A stretch of 64,000 nucleotides of DNA from Gimesia fumaroli (GTDB taxonomy: Bacteria; Planctomycetota; Planctomycetia; Planctomycetales; Planctomycetaceae), in contig NZ_CP037452.1 in the NCBI RefSeq assembly GCF_007754425.1, positions 1,087,501 to 1,151,500 on the forward strand, read 5' to 3'. The notes under the pieces were generated by a model. That model was given only the letters and a program-made list of their open reading frames with translations. It was not told the DNA's origin and made no database searches. Position 1 is the first letter of the stretch. Each line of letters starts with the position of its first letter. The translations under genes and the position numbers were made by a program. Shown one piece after another: positions 35,125 to 47,624 of the stretch.

Positions 35125-37038
35125 TTATTTCAGCAGATCGGGGAGTGCTTTTTTCAGATCGGAGACGGTCGCACTCCGATTGACGACCTTGCCCGATTTG
35201 TCGACGAGAAACATGGTCGGCAATGAGATCACGCCGAAGTCACGCGCCGGGGCACTTTCCAGTCCCCCCTCTTCGTGAATATGAGCCCAGGGAACTTTGT
35301 GCTGTTCGATATACTTTTCGGCTAACTTGGGAGTCGCATCAAGGTTGATACCCAATACGTCAAAACCCTGGCTGTGGTATTTGCTGTAAAGCTCCTGGAT
35401 TTGCGGCAGATCTTCCGTGCAGGGTTTGCACCAACTGGACCAGAAGATGACCAGCAGCACTTTGCCACGATATTGCTTCGCGTTAATGCTGCCGCCACCG
35501 AGAGACGTTCCCGCTAAGTCGAGTTCTTTGCCCGCCAGATTCATCCGTCGCAAGGCGCCGGCGCCGCGGGTTCCTGCTTCCGAGCTGGCATGGCTTTCGA
35601 CCAGTTTCGTATACCATTTTTTGGACTCCGCGACTTTTCCGCTGAATTCCTGCGTGACCGCCAACTGCAGCATCGCTTCGGCAGAATCGTCTGAGTTGGG
35701 GTACTTTTTAATGAAGTCTTCCAGCTGCGTCAGCCACCAGGTCTGCACATCGCGGAGTTTATCGCTTTGAGTTGTCTGCAACTGTGAACTGTAATCTGCC
35801 AGCAGTGTGCGATAGGTGACATAAGCGACCAGATCCTGATCCTGTGAGTTCTTCTGAACCTGATCTCGAATTTTCTGCAGCTGTTTTAATCCGTCCCGGT
35901 ATCCGACCGTCTGGACGGCTGCGGCCAGCCCATCAACCATTTGCCGCGTCCATTGTGACCGTTCGTCTTCATTTTTCGAAGCGGCAATCAGCTTTTCAAT
36001 AATCACAACACGGTCGGCATTGTATTTGGCAATCGCCTGGGGGCCTTTGTCCGGAGTCGGGCTGTTCTGATCGAGTTTCTGAAGGTCATCCAGTAGGCTC
36101 TGCATCTCTTTGGAAAGTCCTACTGTCGAATTTGTAGGCAAACTGGCGTTCCCCGCAACCGGCTGCATCAGGGTTCCCCCTTCGGTCACCTGCATCGATT
36201 CGCCTTCAATTGGCAGAGGAACCTGAGTCAGTCGCCAGACATCGCCGACGCGAATCAGTTCGCCAAATTGAATCAGGCCGCTTTTGCCTTTGGTATCTAT
36301 GATGGCCATCACATTTTCGAAGACATGCAAATCTTTGTCCGTTTTGATGCTATCTGCGGGGATCAGCCCGGGCATGGCTCCGTCAAAGCGAACCCAGACT
36401 GTGTCCGGGGTGATCATTTTGGTTTTGGCAAGCATGGCAGGAATTTCCTGCGGCGCTCCCTGGGCCGATTCACGAATTTTATCGGCAAAGGGATTCTTGA
36501 TGCCGGCATCGGCGACTTCGTCTTCCGTGATCAAGAGCGACTGGAACAGCTTTGTATTGTTGCTGGCTAAAGCGGCGATGGCGACTCTGGTGACTTCCTC
36601 AGCAGAGATCATTTTCCATTCGTCAATCACGCCGTCTTCATCTTTATCAATGCCCCAGCGCGTTCCCGCCAGATTCATCCAGCGTGAGCCATCGACTTTA
36701 TTATTAAAGTTGGCATCGATATCCCGATAGACTTCCAGTCCACGATTGAAGTAACGCCATTGATCTACGACATTATCGCCGTTGGTGTCCACGAAGCGTC
36801 TCAAGACTTGACCATTCGGGCCATACACAATCCAGCCCGAACTGTTTTTGTTCTGCTCGACCTCGACCTTACAACGGCTGTATTCCGACTTTTCCGGAAT
36901 TTCGATTTCGACGTCTTTTTGAATTGGCTTGAACGTCAACGCCAGTTCAACAGACGGGGCATCAGCCGCCGGCAGTGAACTCGAGAACAAAATGAGGGAA
37001 GCGAATACTGTTAAGAACGAGATTCGACCAATAGACAT
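35125..37038 (-). CDS. Exported TlpA-like thioredoxin with calcium-loop motifs
   Basis: A 637-residue exported protein. The ATG at 37038 has GGAG ten bases upstream and gives a clean signal peptide (GRISFLTVFASLILFSSSLPAAD); an ATG nine codons earlier is rejected. Three EF-hand-like or thrombospondin-3-like loops occur at residues 84-92 (DTNGDNVVD), 106-116 and 131-139 (DKDEDGVID), each followed within a few residues by W. A helical middle region with TPR-like hairpins follows. The C-terminal thioredoxin fold carries the redox motif W536-C-K-P-C540 and cis-proline ISLPTMFLVD, typical of TlpA/ResA disulfide reductases. It probably works in the periplasm or on the surface; its target is unknown. 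Confidence 0.88.
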   Translation of the reverse strand: MSIGRISFLTVFASLILFSSSLPAADAPSVELALTFKPIQKDVEIEIPEKSEYSRCKVEVEQNKNSSGWIVYGPNGQVLRRFVDTNGDNVVDQWRYFNRGLEVYRDIDANFNNKVDGSRWMNLAGTRWGIDKDEDGVIDEWKMISAEEVTRVAIAALASNNTKLFQSLLITEDEVADAGIKNPFADKIRESAQGAPQEIPAMLAKTKMITPDTVWVRFDGAMPGLIPADSIKTDKDLHVFENVMAIIDTKGKSGLIQFGELIRVGDVWRLTQVPLPIEGESMQVTEGGTLMQPVAGNASLPTNSTVGLSKEMQSLLDDLQKLDQNSPTPDKGPQAIAKYNADRVVIIEKLIAASKNEDERSQWTRQMVDGLAAAVQTVGYRDGLKQLQKIRDQVQKNSQDQDLVAYVTYRTLLADYSSQLQTTQSDKLRDVQTWWLTQLEDFIKKYPNSDDSAEAMLQLAVTQEFSGKVAESKKWYTKLVESHASSEAGTRGAGALRRMNLAGKELDLAGTSLGGGSINAKQYRGKVLLVIFWSSWCKPCTEDLPQIQELYSKYHSQGFDVLGINLDATPKLAEKYIEQHKVPWAHIHEEGGLESAPARDFGVISLPTMFLVDKSGKVVNRSATVSDLKKALPDLLK

Positions 37039-37186
37039 ATCACAGGACTCCGATTCCGTTGGCACGCATACTTTAAATAGGCTGACAAACTACAGTGTCG
37101 CGATTTTAGTAGAAAACCGGTCTATAGGTCACCCTCAATTTTCAGGATTCCCGGGAAAGCCACCTGTATCACATCAAATGGCCGGT

Positions 37187-40100
37187 TTAATTTAACAGCA
37201 GACCGGCATAACCGACGACGCGGGAGAGATCACCTGTAATCTGACCCGAAGTGGTATAGCCAACTTGTTCTACACGACTCAGCTTACCCATTTTTTGGAG
37301 TGTTTTCATCACAATGACGGCCGGCAGGACGCCGCACATCGAAATATGGTGTTCCTGAACTACTTCCAGCAATCCATCCGGATCCATGTTGCGCATTTTC
37401 TCCAGCGCCAGTTCATCCAGTCGACGATTTTCCGCATCGGTGGCGAAATGATTCATGTCGCTGGATATCAGCAGCAGCGGAGGTTCATCCAATCCCTGAA
37501 TCACATGCGACAGACCTTCGGCAAATTCTTCACAGCGTTTCAGATTGCCTCCACCAATGGCGATTCCCACGACCTGTGAATTGGGGGCCAGCCGTTTGAT
37601 CATCGGGAGCTCGACTTCAATGGCGTGTTCGCGCCGGTGGGCGGCGGCGTCCCGTTCCAGTCCTGGTATCTGCTCCGATAGTGTTTTGGCCAGATCGCCG
37701 TTCGATTCCAGTTCACCGTTCGGTAACTGCCAGACTCGATGCGGGGCGACGGCCCACTCGACTCCTTCACGCGTATGCTTGGGGCCGATAACAATAATTG
37801 TGGCTGGGAATTCGATTCGTTTCAGAACGTCGGCGGCAATTTTCCCGGAATACATCCAACCGGCATGGGGGACCATCGCAGCTGCCCAGCGTTCGGGGGT
37901 ACCCGGTTCATGGAACAGGTCATTCAATTGCCCTTCGAGCGTGCCCGGATCGGCGGGATAAAACGTGCCGGCAACACCGGCTGGTCTGATTGCTGGCCCC
38001 AGTTCTGAGCGGGGACGATTCACAATTTGAAAACGGGAGGCCGCGGTCTGAACTGCCAGGCTGAATATCTGAGCTGACTCGGGTTGCGTGATTCCCACGG
38101 CCTGTTGTGCCGCGTCGATCAGTTGGGCAGCTTCCTGTTCGCGCTCAAAGAACCAGCCTGTTTTCTGACCTTCAATCAACAACAGGCTGCGGTTTTGTGA
38201 ATCGAAATCGGTAAGGTCCGCAGCTTCCACGGTGCCGTGCATTGCGGGATCGGAAGCCAGAACCAGTTTGACCTGAAATTCTCCCGGGCGCAGATTCAGC
38301 CGTGCAATGTTCTGCACCAGTTGTTGACAGAGTGAGAACACTGTTGACTGCATCGGAAACGATTGTTTCAACGTCCATTTTGTAAGTGCCAGTTCTTCGT
38401 CGGTGTCTGTTTTCGTCAGCAGCAGCGCCACGCCTTGAATGTTGGTATCTGAAACGTGAGGGCAGTAGTACATGGGGACCTGCCCGCTCATTAAAGCTTC
38501 AATGGTTGATTGCACGTACTGCAAGTATTGTGCAAATTCGCGTTGTTCTAATATTTTCTGACTGGCAGATTCAACTGGTGCTGTTGTCATCTCTGCTAAT
38601 TTGGCGGAACAGGAAATCCCCTGATAGCGTAAGAGGGTGGTCCCCGGGTCTTTCCAGGCAGTCGGGGGGAGTCCTGCTTTGATACAGGTTTGATTCAGAA
38701 ACTCTTCCGCGTTCCAGCCATGATCGAGGGGAACGCCGGGCAGCAGTAAACCGCTGCGACCGTCGGCTCGAATCTGCAAACCGTGCAGACCGACCGTGAC
38801 TGCATTGACGCGATCGGTGCCCTGTTCTTCGACCACTTCCAGTTCGGAGAGCAGCCAGACTTCGAGATCGAGCTGTGTTAATTCACTGGAAGAAATCGGA
38901 GGAAACCGGGGATCATCTTTGGCCGCTCGAACTGCTGCCTGATGCAGGGCCTGTCCCAGCGGCAGTGGTTGTCCGAAGTTCCCACAGCAGGAACGGAGTT
39001 GTCCCTGTCGTTTCAAGCTGACAAACGCCCCGTTGACGACCATCTCTTCCAGTTCACCCAGCGTCAAGTCTTCGGGCTGGGTCTGTGTGGCAGTGCCCAC
39101 GACGACGGCCGCCGCCTTCTGTAAGAGTTTTTGTTCATGCTCGCTGGAGAGTTCAATGTCGCGCGGTGTTTGATTAGCCTGCATCGGTGAAGAACCTTTC
39201 TCTGGACCGGCCTGTTGAGAGTGAGTGTCGGTATGTTGTTTTAGCATCGCCTGGATATCAACGGGCAATCTTTTTTGGCCCCATGTGCCAGGCTCGTCAT
39301 TAAAGTGACCCGCAATTTGAGTGCCACAGTAACGACATTGATTCTGGTTCAAAGCATATTTGCCTAATTGGTACCAGTTCCGTTCAATCAGCGTCTGCTG
39401 GCATCCGGGACAATAGGTGCTCTGTCGTGCGGCATCGTTGACGTTTCCCGTATAAACATATTTGAGTCCCGCTTTGAGCGCGATCTCGCGTGCACGTATC
39501 AGGGTTTCAGGGGGAGTGGCACCGCGATCCAGCATGCGGAAGTCCGGATGGAAGGCGGAAAAATGCAGCGGCACTTCGTCGCCAACATTGTCCAGAATCC
39601 AGTCGCACATCTGCTGAAATTCACTGCTGTCGTCATTGGCTTGTGGAATCACGAGATTTGTGATTTCAAACCAGACGTCGGTTTCCTGTTTTAACCAGCG
39701 CAAGGTATCCAGGACCGGTTGCAGATGCGACAGGGTGACCCGGTAATAAAACTCTTCCGTGAACGCTTTCAAATCGATATTGGCAGCGTCGATATGTTCA
39801 AAAAAATCAGCCCGCGCGGATTCGGTAATATACCCGGCCGTGACAGCGACAGTTTTCACGCCCCTCGCGTGGCAGGCTTTGGAGGTTTCGATGGCGTATT
39901 CCGACCAGATAATCGGATCGTTATAAGTAAAGGCGACACTCTGGCAACCTAACTCCTCAGTAACCTCGGCAATTTCTTCAGGCAGAGCCCGTGCACTGAG
40001 CCGCTCGATTTCCCGGGATTTGGAAATGTCCCAGTTCTGACAGAATTTGCATCCCAGATTACAGCCTGCTGTTCCGAAAGAGAGCACACTGGAACCCGGA

Positions 40101-40363
40101 TAAAAATGGTTCAACGGTTTTTTCTCGATGGGATCGACGCAGAATCCGGTGCTGCGGCCATAGGTGGTCAAAGCCATCTTGCCGCCGACGTTCTGCCGAA
40201 CGAAGCAAAAACCCCGGTCATTTTCTGCCAGGGCGCAGGCACGCGGACATAAGTCGCAGACGATTTTTTCCCCGTCACGGTGCCACCACCGACCCGGGTA
40301 GAGGCCTTGCGCGAGATCGGCTGGCTGGTCTGGCGTAAGAATAGGGAGCGTTTTTTTGGTCAT
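37187..40363 (-). CDS. AmmeMemoRadiSam fusion: radical SAM + AMMECR1 + Memo domains
   Basis: A 1,058-residue fusion from the ATG at 40363; longer in-frame starts to 40495 are low-complexity leader and rejected. Residues 25-360: AmmeMemoRadiSam-type radical SAM enzyme, with cysteine-rich CDLCPRAC (36-43), the 4Fe-4S motif C101-x3-C105-x2-C108 and a C-terminal C-x2-C pair. Residues about 405-590: AMMECR1 domain (GAFVSLKRQGQLRSCCGNF, DPRFPPIS). Residues about 595-785: unassigned. Residues 790-1058: Memo domain, with PHAGWMYSG (H833), REHAIEVELP (H913), SSDMNHF (H972) and MCGVLPAVIV (C1010) as in metal-binding Memo1. The three families usually sit as adjacent genes and their joint reaction is unknown. 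Confidence 0.93.
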   Translation of the reverse strand: MTKKTLPILTPDQPADLAQGLYPGRWWHRDGEKIVCDLCPRACALAENDRGFCFVRQNVGGKMALTTYGRSTGFCVDPIEKKPLNHFYPGSSVLSFGTAGCNLGCKFCQNWDISKSREIERLSARALPEEIAEVTEELGCQSVAFTYNDPIIWSEYAIETSKACHARGVKTVAVTAGYITESARADFFEHIDAANIDLKAFTEEFYYRVTLSHLQPVLDTLRWLKQETDVWFEITNLVIPQANDDSSEFQQMCDWILDNVGDEVPLHFSAFHPDFRMLDRGATPPETLIRAREIALKAGLKYVYTGNVNDAARQSTYCPGCQQTLIERNWYQLGKYALNQNQCRYCGTQIAGHFNDEPGTWGQKRLPVDIQAMLKQHTDTHSQQAGPEKGSSPMQANQTPRDIELSSEHEQKLLQKAAAVVVGTATQTQPEDLTLGELEEMVVNGAFVSLKRQGQLRSCCGNFGQPLPLGQALHQAAVRAAKDDPRFPPISSSELTQLDLEVWLLSELEVVEEQGTDRVNAVTVGLHGLQIRADGRSGLLLPGVPLDHGWNAEEFLNQTCIKAGLPPTAWKDPGTTLLRYQGISCSAKLAEMTTAPVESASQKILEQREFAQYLQYVQSTIEALMSGQVPMYYCPHVSDTNIQGVALLLTKTDTDEELALTKWTLKQSFPMQSTVFSLCQQLVQNIARLNLRPGEFQVKLVLASDPAMHGTVEAADLTDFDSQNRSLLLIEGQKTGWFFEREQEAAQLIDAAQQAVGITQPESAQIFSLAVQTAASRFQIVNRPRSELGPAIRPAGVAGTFYPADPGTLEGQLNDLFHEPGTPERWAAAMVPHAGWMYSGKIAADVLKRIEFPATIIVIGPKHTREGVEWAVAPHRVWQLPNGELESNGDLAKTLSEQIPGLERDAAAHRREHAIEVELPMIKRLAPNSQVVGIAIGGGNLKRCEEFAEGLSHVIQGLDEPPLLLISSDMNHFATDAENRRLDELALEKMRNMDPDGLLEVVQEHHISMCGVLPAVIVMKTLQKMGKLSRVEQVGYTTSGQITGDLSRVVGYAGLLLN

Positions 40364-44876: not shown

Positions 44877-45350
44877 ATGCGTCTCGATCCTCTGAATTTA
44901 AAGTCGAATCAAGTAGTCAAAAACAAATCTTCAAGTGAGAAAGTCGTATCTCTCACGGGTTGTGCTTACCAGTGGAACCAGAACCAGATGTTTGATCAAA
45001 AGTTGTTTTTCATCAAATAGTTGTGGTTATGCAGCGATCTCAAGTGAACGGACTGGAGAAGCTTTAACGGGCTGCTCTTCGCGCGTGCAATATGAACAGC
45101 GTGCCACTGCTTACTTTGATTAATTCGCAGAAAATTCTGTCGAATCCTGTGGATCGTTTCAATTCGTTTTCGTTTTCCTATTAGAGACTCTATCTAAAGG
45201 GACGACTCGCTGTCTTGAGTCGTCCGGTTGATCAACTCTTTTGTAGGGCGGGCCTTCGTCAATACAAAAATCAACCATGCGTCTGGTGGCTTCCGTCGAT
45301 CAGTTCGAAAGGGCTGCGCGCAAGCACTTTACGCTTCAGGAGAACTCATC
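44877..45350. other. 474-base leader and gap upstream of the peroxidase gene
   Basis: No gene is supported; the peroxidase frame is open upstream to 45228 but lacks a ribosome-binding site there. The region holds two adjacent inverted repeats at 45200-45236 and ends with AGGAG eight bases before the ATG at 45351. Confidence 0.55.
45200..45236. promoter_or_regulatory. Hairpin plus adjacent palindrome in the peroxidase leader
   Basis: GGACGACTC (45200-45208) is the reverse complement of GAGTCGTCC (45217-45225), with an eight-base loop. It is followed at once by the perfect ten-base palindrome GTTGATCAAC (45227-45236) and then CTCTTTTG. It could be an operator pair or an RNA structure acting on the heme peroxidase gene 115 bases downstream. 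Confidence 0.4.
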
Positions 45351-47624
45351 ATGCTATTTCGAAAACCAAATCGTCATCGCAGGGCCGCCCGTCAATCAAC
45401 TCATTTTTCAGCCGTTGAGCACCTTGAAGATCGTCAACTTTTGTCGGCGGTGAATTCCCTCTCAACAGACATTATCGATTCAGATACGGAGTGGAATACC
45501 GTTACCGAATACGCGTCCATCGATGGGACTGGCAACAATATCGACAATCCGGAACTCGGAAGTCCCGGTACACAGCTCATCAGGCTGGCCGAAGCAGCCT
45601 ACGGCGATGGCCTGTCGACTCCTGCCGGTGAAGACCGCCCGAGCGCCCGCGAAATCAGTAATGTCATCGCTGCGGTGAATTCAGAGGAAACCAACGACCG
45701 TTTCCTGACAGACATCTTCTGGGTCTGGGGACAGTTCATCGATCACGATATTACGCTGACTGAAGCCGCTCATGATGAAGACGGCAATCCGCTGGAATCA
45801 TTTCCGATTGAAGTACCAACGGGTGACGTTTACTTCGATCCGGATGGCTCCGGGGATGACGTGATTGGTCTGAACCGATCTGCTTTTGAAGTAGACGAAG
45901 ATGGTGTGCGGCAGCAGGTCAATCAGATTACCGCATTTATCGATGGTTCGATGATCTACGGTTCGGATGAAGAACTGGCGGCCCAGTTGAGAACCTTCGA
46001 AGGGGGAATGCTGGCAACCAGTGATGATGGCCTGTTGCCATACGGAGATGACGGATTCTTTCAGGCGGGCGATATTCGCGCCAATGAGAACGTGGCATTG
46101 ACTTCGATGCACACAATCTGGGTTCGCGAGCACAATCGGATTGCTGCAGAACTGGCGGCGGAAAACCCGGATCTGACCGATGAAGAACTGTATCAACAGG
46201 CTCGGCAGATTGTGATTGGCGAGTTACAGGCGATTACGTTCAATGAATTCCTGCCAGCATTATTTGGCACCGGGGTCGTCAGCGAATACACGGGATACGA
46301 TTCCACAGTCGATCCCAGTATCGCCAATGAATTTTCCAATGCCGCCTATCGCTTCGGGCACACAATGTTGTCGTCCGAACTGCTGCGGCTTGACGAGAAC
46401 GGGAACGTTTCCGATGAAGGCAATCTTGCGTTGTTGAACGCATTCTTTAACCCGAGCGAACTGGAACAAAATGGAGTCGATTCCCTGTTGCGCGGGGCCA
46501 CTGTGAATGTGGCACAGGAAATCGACAACGAACTCGTCGATGACGTTCGCAACTTCCTGTTTGGTCCTCCGGGGGCAGACGGTTTCGATCTGGCGTCGTT
46601 GAATATCCAGCGTGGCCGCGACCATGGACTGGCAGACTACAACGCAACACGCGTTGCCTTGGGGCTGTCTGAGGTGGAAAGCTTCTCCGACATCACATCT
46701 GATCCGGAAGTTGCCGCTAAGCTGGAACAACTATATGGCACAGTCGACAATATCGATTTGTGGGTCGGGGGTCTGGCCGAAGATCATCTGCCGGGATCAA
46801 GTATGGGCGAGACGTTCACGGCCATTATCGTCGATCAGTTTGAACGGCTTCGTGATGGAGATCGCTTCTGGTATGAGAACGTGTTCTCCGGTGATGCGCT
46901 CGACGAAATCAGCGGTACGACACTGGCCGATGTGATTGAACGTAACACGGATGTCTCAGGGCTGCAGGAAAACGTGTTTTTTGCTCCCACTGTCATGCGG
47001 CTCGATCTGGCAGTAACCGGTTCCAACGACGTCACCATTCGCGAGAAAAACGGGAATCTGGAAGTGATTGACAACAGAACGCGGCAGGTGATCGGCAGTC
47101 AGTCACTGGGCAGCGTGGAACGTTTGATGCTGACGAGTACCAATAACGGATCGCAACACGTCACCATTGAAGGGATTACCGTCGCAGAACTGCCCGGTGG
47201 TCTGGTCGTCGAAGCGGGGAAAGGCCGTGCTGACACATTGATTGTGAATGGCACAAACCAAAGCGACACGATCTTCGTGAACGAGGATTATGTTGATGTC
47301 AGCGGCATGCAGCTGGAATTCACCGGCATGGAGCGGATTGTGATTCGAGGCACGGACGCGGATGACACGATTGAAGTGGCTGATGGACTGGAAATTGATG
47401 TCGATGTGCAGGATGACATCGGCCGCGATCATATGCATGAGAGACGCCATAGAAGAGAGCAGTTGGCGCATCGTCCGGACGATCACCGCCCCACACAAGG
47501 GCCGAACCGGCAGAGGTCTGGGGATGCCGATGGCGACATGCCGCCAGAAATGCTGGATCAGGTCTTTGCTTCCAACGACCTTGATCCTGTATTAGGAATG
47601 CCTCCTGGCAAACGCCGTCCTTAG
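45351..47624 (+). CDS. Exported heme peroxidase (animal/peroxidasin-type) with LEPR-like N-terminus
   Basis: A 757-residue protein from the ATG at 45351 (CAGGAG upstream). The basic N-terminus leads to VEHLEDRQLLSA (residues 22-33), a variant of the planctomycete LEPR-x-L-L surface-protein motif. Residues about 55-560 are an animal-type heme peroxidase: distal histidine H132 in GQFIDHDITL, catalytic R259-E260 in IWVREHNRIA, proximal H337 in YRFGHTML, and SLNIQRGRDHGLADYN, a family hallmark. After about residue 570 come beta-rich repeats with N-G-T-N-Q-S-D-T pieces and a His/Arg/Asp-rich tail (HMHERRHRREQ). Such enzymes use H2O2 to oxidise halides or phenols, or to crosslink proteins; the substrate is unknown. 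Confidence 0.92.
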   Translation: MLFRKPNRHRRAARQSTHFSAVEHLEDRQLLSAVNSLSTDIIDSDTEWNTVTEYASIDGTGNNIDNPELGSPGTQLIRLAEAAYGDGLSTPAGEDRPSAREISNVIAAVNSEETNDRFLTDIFWVWGQFIDHDITLTEAAHDEDGNPLESFPIEVPTGDVYFDPDGSGDDVIGLNRSAFEVDEDGVRQQVNQITAFIDGSMIYGSDEELAAQLRTFEGGMLATSDDGLLPYGDDGFFQAGDIRANENVALTSMHTIWVREHNRIAAELAAENPDLTDEELYQQARQIVIGELQAITFNEFLPALFGTGVVSEYTGYDSTVDPSIANEFSNAAYRFGHTMLSSELLRLDENGNVSDEGNLALLNAFFNPSELEQNGVDSLLRGATVNVAQEIDNELVDDVRNFLFGPPGADGFDLASLNIQRGRDHGLADYNATRVALGLSEVESFSDITSDPEVAAKLEQLYGTVDNIDLWVGGLAEDHLPGSSMGETFTAIIVDQFERLRDGDRFWYENVFSGDALDEISGTTLADVIERNTDVSGLQENVFFAPTVMRLDLAVTGSNDVTIREKNGNLEVIDNRTRQVIGSQSLGSVERLMLTSTNNGSQHVTIEGITVAELPGGLVVEAGKGRADTLIVNGTNQSDTIFVNEDYVDVSGMQLEFTGMERIVIRGTDADDTIEVADGLEIDVDVQDDIGRDHMHERRHRREQLAHRPDDHRPTQGPNRQRSGDADGDMPPEMLDQVFASNDLDPVLGMPPGKRRP

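Follow-up and report, generated by a model that had tools for sequence, protein, structure and literature searches.

A four-domain fusion gene at the locus

The stretch analysed here (the window) covers 64,000 nucleotides (nt) of the planctomycete Gimesia fumaroli (contig NZ_CP037452.1, positions 1,087,501 to 1,151,500), and its subject is one gene that carries all three components of the AmmeMemoRadiSam system, namely a radical S-adenosylmethionine (SAM) enzyme, AMMECR1 and Memo. All three components are widely conserved, and two of them, Memo and AMMECR1, also have relatives in humans. The gene is one unbroken frame on the minus strand, a strand that an earlier note on this DNA had not given. 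Between AMMECR1 and Memo it encodes a fourth domain, which we denote AMMECR1'.

37187..40363, minus strand: whole gene, a four-domain AmmeMemoRadiSam fusion of 1058 amino acids (aa), from the frame, Pfam, NCBIfam and same-genus matches
39254..40291, minus strand: radical SAM domain, residues 25-370 (TIGR04337)
40040..40063, minus strand: CX3CX2C motif, C101/C105/C108, invariant in 29/29 alignment rows
38618..39106, minus strand: AMMECR1 domain, residues 420-582 (TIGR04335)
38981..38998, minus strand: AMMECR1 LRxCxG motif, here LRSCCG, residues 456-461, with C459 invariant in 29/29 rows
38033..38557, minus strand: AMMECR1', a second AMMECR1-fold domain without LRxCxG, residues ~603-777 (fold and profile-profile comparison)
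38234..38251, minus strand: AMMECR1' motif of its own, DPAMHG, residues 705-710, with D705, H709 and G710 invariant in 38/38 rows
37196..37987, minus strand: Memo domain, residues 793-1056 (TIGR04336)

Pfam placed Radical_SAM at residues 98-245, AMMECR1 at 437-582 and Memo at 795-1055, all over curated cut-offs. The NCBIfam scores were 593.7 bits for the radical SAM component (TIGR04337, cut-off 220), 130.1 bits for component A, AMMECR1 (TIGR04335, cut-off 99), and 251.5 bits for component B, Memo (TIGR04336, cut-off 26). The two databases agree on three components in the order radical SAM, AMMECR1, Memo on one polypeptide, as the earlier note had proposed. The fusion thus resembles the known AmmeMemoRadiSam system in having all three components over cut-off with their motifs kept, but differs in being a single chain that carries a second AMMECR1 fold. 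We are highly confident of the architecture radical SAM - AMMECR1 - AMMECR1' - Memo and of the identity of AMMECR1'.

The longest ATG frame at the gene is 1102 aa. The start at 40363 was preferred because the open frame of a relative (G014, locus L002) begins just four codons ahead of the equivalent 1058-aa start. The search covered 16 other genomes of the genus: 14 gave matches across residues 1-1058, one gave a partial match (219-1058) near a contig edge, and one (76% complete) gave none. No internal stops were seen among the 30 same-genus-search matches assigned a locus. The frameshift check called for earlier therefore found the gene intact, and we regard an assembly or frameshift artefact as already refuted by the full-length frame in those 14 genomes and by the radical SAM domain and AMMECR1' sharing one frame at 31 of the 38 loci of a wider named-genome scan (see below). 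In the genome of the window, Memo and AMMECR1 were each matched once at E <= 0.001, in both cases by the fusion gene. The closest named relatives were Gimesia metagenome-assembled genomes.

The fourth domain has an AMMECR1 fold

The earlier note had suspected a fourth domain at residues 595-785. These residues were rejected as an ordinary part of AMMECR1 or Memo, since both profiles were covered almost in full without this stretch, and a relationship to Memo or radical SAM was likewise rejected (hhalign E 0.29 and 0.11, respectively). The suggested profile search, run with residues 583-792 alone, gave no meaningful Pfam match: the best hit (E 0.064) was at chance level and belonged to an unrelated family. 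No PF01871 (AMMECR1) match to AMMECR1' was listed to E 10, although HMMER filters drop most matches above 0.1. A PDB search with the AMMECR1' alignment profile also found nothing at E 10, and therefore the link to AMMECR1 rests on fold and on profile-profile comparison.

The leading Foldseek and VIA matches of AMMECR1' were three solved AMMECR1 proteins, 1vaj (PH0010), 1zq7 (MM0484) and 1wsc (ST0229), whose fold is common to AMMECR1 and AMMECR1'; AMMECR1' differs from them in having neither LRxCxG nor a listed Pfam AMMECR1 match. In the profile alignment, AMMECR1' and AMMECR1 were ~9-10% identical. Against the second AMMECR1 copies of split systems (see below), the AMMECR1' profile gave E 4.5e-4 or 1.9e-3, depending on the alignment. 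It scored 56.5 with own-family AMMECR1, and 41.0 and 31.3 with the split-system copies. This higher own-family score, which depends on alignment make-up, fits an origin of AMMECR1' by internal duplication.

LRxCxG was present in none of the 38 AMMECR1' rows, compared with all 24 AMMECR1 rows. As this motif and PF01871 are both missing, AMMECR1' is classed as AMMECR1-like and not as a member of the AMMECR1 family. The fourth domain is real, and its novelty lies in where it sits, the fold itself being an old one. Since it is a second AMMECR1 fold, the 1:1:1 stoichiometry previously deduced from the fusion is wrong.

Conservation of AMMECR1'

Six residues of AMMECR1' (P670, Q672, D705, H709, G710 and R725) were invariant in 38/38 rows. 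In nine same-genus pairs, which are not independent, the ratio of nonsynonymous to synonymous substitution rates (dN/dS) for residues 600-790 was 0.08-0.24, similar to that of Memo (0.075-0.20), while the linker at residues 373-405 ranged from 0 to 0.81 across the same pairs. From these patterns, AMMECR1' does not appear to resemble a decaying copy, as it has kept residues of its own though LRxCxG is gone.

A rival explanation is that AMMECR1' is a mere spacer: an inactive duplicate that keeps AMMECR1 and Memo apart at a set distance, with no binding role. The loss of LRxCxG throughout, the low identity to AMMECR1 and an evolutionary rate above that of radical SAM, and in 8/9 pairs above that of AMMECR1, would suit such a role. 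However, a spacer would sit poorly with the six invariant residues and with a dN/dS that is Memo-like, whereas the linker reaches 0.81. We consider the spacer explanation unlikely.

The radical SAM and Memo sites

C101, C105 and C108 form the CX3CX2C motif of the radical SAM superfamily. Two further cysteine sets, C36/C39/C43/C53 and C318/C321/C343/C346, were also invariant in 29/29 rows of the fused family. The CX3CX2C motif and both extra sets were kept in 12/12 comparison rows, ten of which were standalone radical SAM genes from outside the fused family, so these additional cysteines are a usual feature of radical SAM enzymes of this type. For radical SAM, the fold of the full model was closest to the pyruvate formate-lyase (PFL) activating enzyme 3cb8 (E 8.6e-10), which raises the possibility of a glycyl-radical activase acting on another protein, with AMMECR1 and Memo in repair or regulation. 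The family scores point elsewhere, with 58.7 bits for TIGR02493 (PFL activase, cut-off 231.75) against 593.7 bits for TIGR04337, and we think an activase very improbable.

Overall, the full model matched the fold of human MEMO1 best (3bcz, 7kq8; E 1.1e-19). In MEMO1 the iron ligands are H49, H81 and C244, and H131 and H192 lie near the metal site without coordinating (PMC11081632). Alignment to MEMO1 together with conservation gave the following predicted ligands.

37865..37867, minus strand: Memo metal ligand H833 (MEMO1 H49)
37775..37777, minus strand: Memo metal ligand H863 (MEMO1 H81)
37334..37336, minus strand: Memo metal ligand C1010 (MEMO1 C244)

H913 and H972 aligned with H131 and H192, and all five residues were invariant in 29/29 rows. 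Of the ligands named in the earlier note, H833 and C1010 stand, H913 and H972 fall at the non-coordinating positions, and H863 had been overlooked. By this correspondence, the fusion has kept the residues of the His/His/Cys metal site. The Memo domain shares this site with human MEMO1, but the two are only 20-22% identical in the structural match, and the Memo of the fusion forms one covalent chain with AMMECR1 and radical SAM.

Distribution and history of the fused family

The survey of genomes carrying the fusion, which the earlier note had recommended, was run in two ways. Beyond Planctomycetota it consisted of the named-genome scan alone, which used two AMMECR1' peptide patterns and is blind to fusions without them. 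Within the phylum, AMMECR1' and radical SAM were surveyed in 392 genomes each and AMMECR1 in 382.

The named-genome scan returned 38 loci, of which 34 were titled planctomycete, three 'bacterium' only and one Nealsonbacteria. The radical SAM domain of the last (L107, on a contig labelled Candidatus Nealsonbacteria) groups with Pirellulales rows, and the contig is likely mis-binned. Radical SAM was in the same frame at 31 of the 38 loci, four were cut by the contig start, and three lacked it (L100, L106 and L110); the genomes of these three all encode radical SAM in a frame of its own (372-463 aa) that lies beyond the fetched stretch.

In the phylum sample, 14 of the AMMECR1' matches were in frames >1000 aa. 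The other, G045 (L050), has a 705-aa AMMECR1-AMMECR1'-Memo frame with a separate radical SAM gene adjoining. Radical SAM frames >1000 aa numbered at least 15, being those 14 and G397, whose frame holds radical SAM, AMMECR1 and Memo, with ~190 aa lying between AMMECR1 and Memo that went unmatched by the first AMMECR1' model. In G397, L048 and L056 the stretch at the place of AMMECR1' was not shown to be AMMECR1-like. In G347 (L048, 2622-5764), a radical SAM-AMMECR1 frame and a frame of the intervening stretch plus Memo overlap by 100 nt, which is either a split or a frameshift.

Trees were quick IQ-TREE runs with no bootstrap. The fused family lay on one side of a branch in the Memo tree (Shimodaira-Hasegawa-like approximate likelihood ratio test (SH-aLRT) 99; five outside rows, one very long-branched) and in the AMMECR1 tree (SH-aLRT 94, just below the program's mark; eight outside rows). 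In the radical SAM tree, one branch (99) unites all fused rows with four split or cut rows (L048, L050, L065 and L072). A single origin of the fusion with later splits fits, but is not proven.

The same data bear on the view that the domains share regulation and dosage only, so that one chain would carry at least two separate reactions with no hand-over. Consistent with this view, the radical SAM part is separate in three of the 34 relatives whose state could be told and in G045, and the inter-domain placement in the predicted full-chain model is uncertain (predicted TM-score 0.63). Nevertheless, a single frame holds AMMECR1, AMMECR1' and Memo at 36 of the 38 loci, the other two running off a contig end, and the trees of the three domains agree on one family. 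An exception is G347, where the frame is interrupted between AMMECR1 and the next stretch. Shared regulation as the whole explanation is thus fairly improbable.

Paired AMMECR1 units in other gene layouts

AMMECR1 was matched in 183 of the 382 phylum genomes. At least 28 genomes have an AMMECR1 frame of 476-642 aa followed immediately by a second AMMECR1 frame of ~190-250 aa on the same strand. All 16 fetched pairs (L121-L136) consist of a Memo-AMMECR1 fusion and a standalone AMMECR1, with LRxCxG in both copies. Like the fusion, these systems have two AMMECR1 units per Memo, but they use two genes, reverse the domain order, keep both cysteines and have no fused radical SAM. Two AMMECR1 units per Memo therefore occur in two unlike gene layouts, and this doubling, fused or as adjacent pairs, suggests that AMMECR1 acts in pairs.

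Unlike the fusion, other AmmeMemoRadiSam systems fetched from the phylum include separate genes (L067) and Memo-AMMECR1 fusions in reverse order without an AMMECR1' match (L059, L063, L064 and L068). Two genomes, G045 (L050, L063) and G387 (L051, L138), each hold both a system of the AMMECR1' type and a Memo-AMMECR1 gene belonging to the other type. The two types, coexisting in these genomes, may do different jobs.

A one-chain system with a putative asymmetric AMMECR1 pair

We propose that the fusion is an AmmeMemoRadiSam system on a single chain, in which AMMECR1 and AMMECR1' work as an asymmetric pair, and we assign this reading a probability of roughly 0.6. The domains present, their folds, their conservation and their common ancestry are established or have good support, and the single pathway, the pairing and the passing on of an intermediate are inferred. 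That all four parts serve one pathway is quite probable. We also lean towards AMMECR1' being a working partner rather than a spacer.

In the proposed mechanism, the radical SAM part would make a 5'-deoxyadenosyl radical and so activate a substrate. AMMECR1 and AMMECR1' would form an asymmetric pseudo-dimer in which one half would bear a reactive cysteine and the AMMECR1' half would be re-tooled for substrate binding or Memo docking. The Memo iron site would then perform a second redox step, and the fusion would hold an unstable intermediate local. A radical step followed by a Memo step on one substrate is possible but somewhat doubtful. The earlier note had argued from covalent linkage to a single shared substrate; the fusion makes this likely, but the argument was put too strongly given the relatives with an unfused radical SAM part. 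A bolder version, in which AMMECR1' has a re-tooled site of its own (PxQ, D705, H709 and R725) and is an obligate asymmetric partner of AMMECR1, would give the machine two AMMECR1 units for each radical SAM and each Memo, at least in the phylum, and make the chain a self-contained radical/iron enzyme that passes one intermediate between sites. We rate this version as possible but less likely than not.

Several observations weigh against the proposed pair or its generality. Foldseek TM-scores between AMMECR1' and AMMECR1 were modest (0.40-0.55, root-mean-square deviation 7.1-7.4). The profile link needs diversity, disappearing with 13 same-genus rows alone (E 0.13), and the AMMECR1' profile gave E 0.06 against six AMMECR1 rows of unfused type. 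For the stretch of L046, L048 and L056, the comparison with AMMECR1 gave E 0.044, within the shuffle range, and that with the other AMMECR1' rows E 0.11. The second AMMECR1 of split systems keeps its cysteine and is therefore not in the same state as AMMECR1'. Furthermore, dN/dS of residues 600-790 exceeded that of radical SAM in 9/9 pairs and that of AMMECR1 in 8/9. AMMECR1' matched just 15 of the 392 phylum genomes, compared with 213 with a radical SAM match, and the radical SAM part is detachable, as described above. Mapped onto the tree of radical SAM domains, the four-domain label requires five changes, at least three of them forced, as split and contig-cut rows sit inside.

Burroughs et al. 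2019 (J Biol Chem) reportedly proposed that nucleotide bases or isoprenoids are modified by Memo systems. In searches limited to open-licence papers, neither the full fusion nor AMMECR1' was found described; a mention in Burroughs et al. 2019 is possible. What is novel here, within the known AmmeMemoRadiSam system, is the full fusion and an AMMECR1-fold copy without the cysteine motif. With a natural one-chain version, expression, assays and crystallisation need one protein in place of three, and AMMECR1 pairing can be examined in the simpler two-gene systems.

Gene neighbourhood

Neighbours were compared at 47 loci, with five duplicate loci dropped before counts, and none was common to the whole fused family. 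Of the 38 loci where 800 nt of sequence was available upstream, 11 have a tandem DUF3467 gene immediately before the fusion in the same orientation (L087, L089, L090, L093, L095, L096, L098, L099, L100, L106 and L108); another choice of genes gave a count of 10. The DUF3467 product is a possible partner of the fusion. In the genome of the window, the tandem DUF3467 gene is far from the fusion gene, and it was not used for the mechanism. Two further genes of the window are listed below.

45228-47624, plus strand: protein of 798 aa carrying a domain of the animal haem peroxidase family (E 7.9e-171)
35125-37065, minus strand: protein of 646 aa whose C-terminal domain is thioredoxin-like, ~120 nt downstream of the fusion on the same strand

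A gene similar to the latter stands beside the fusion in five Gimesia-type loci.
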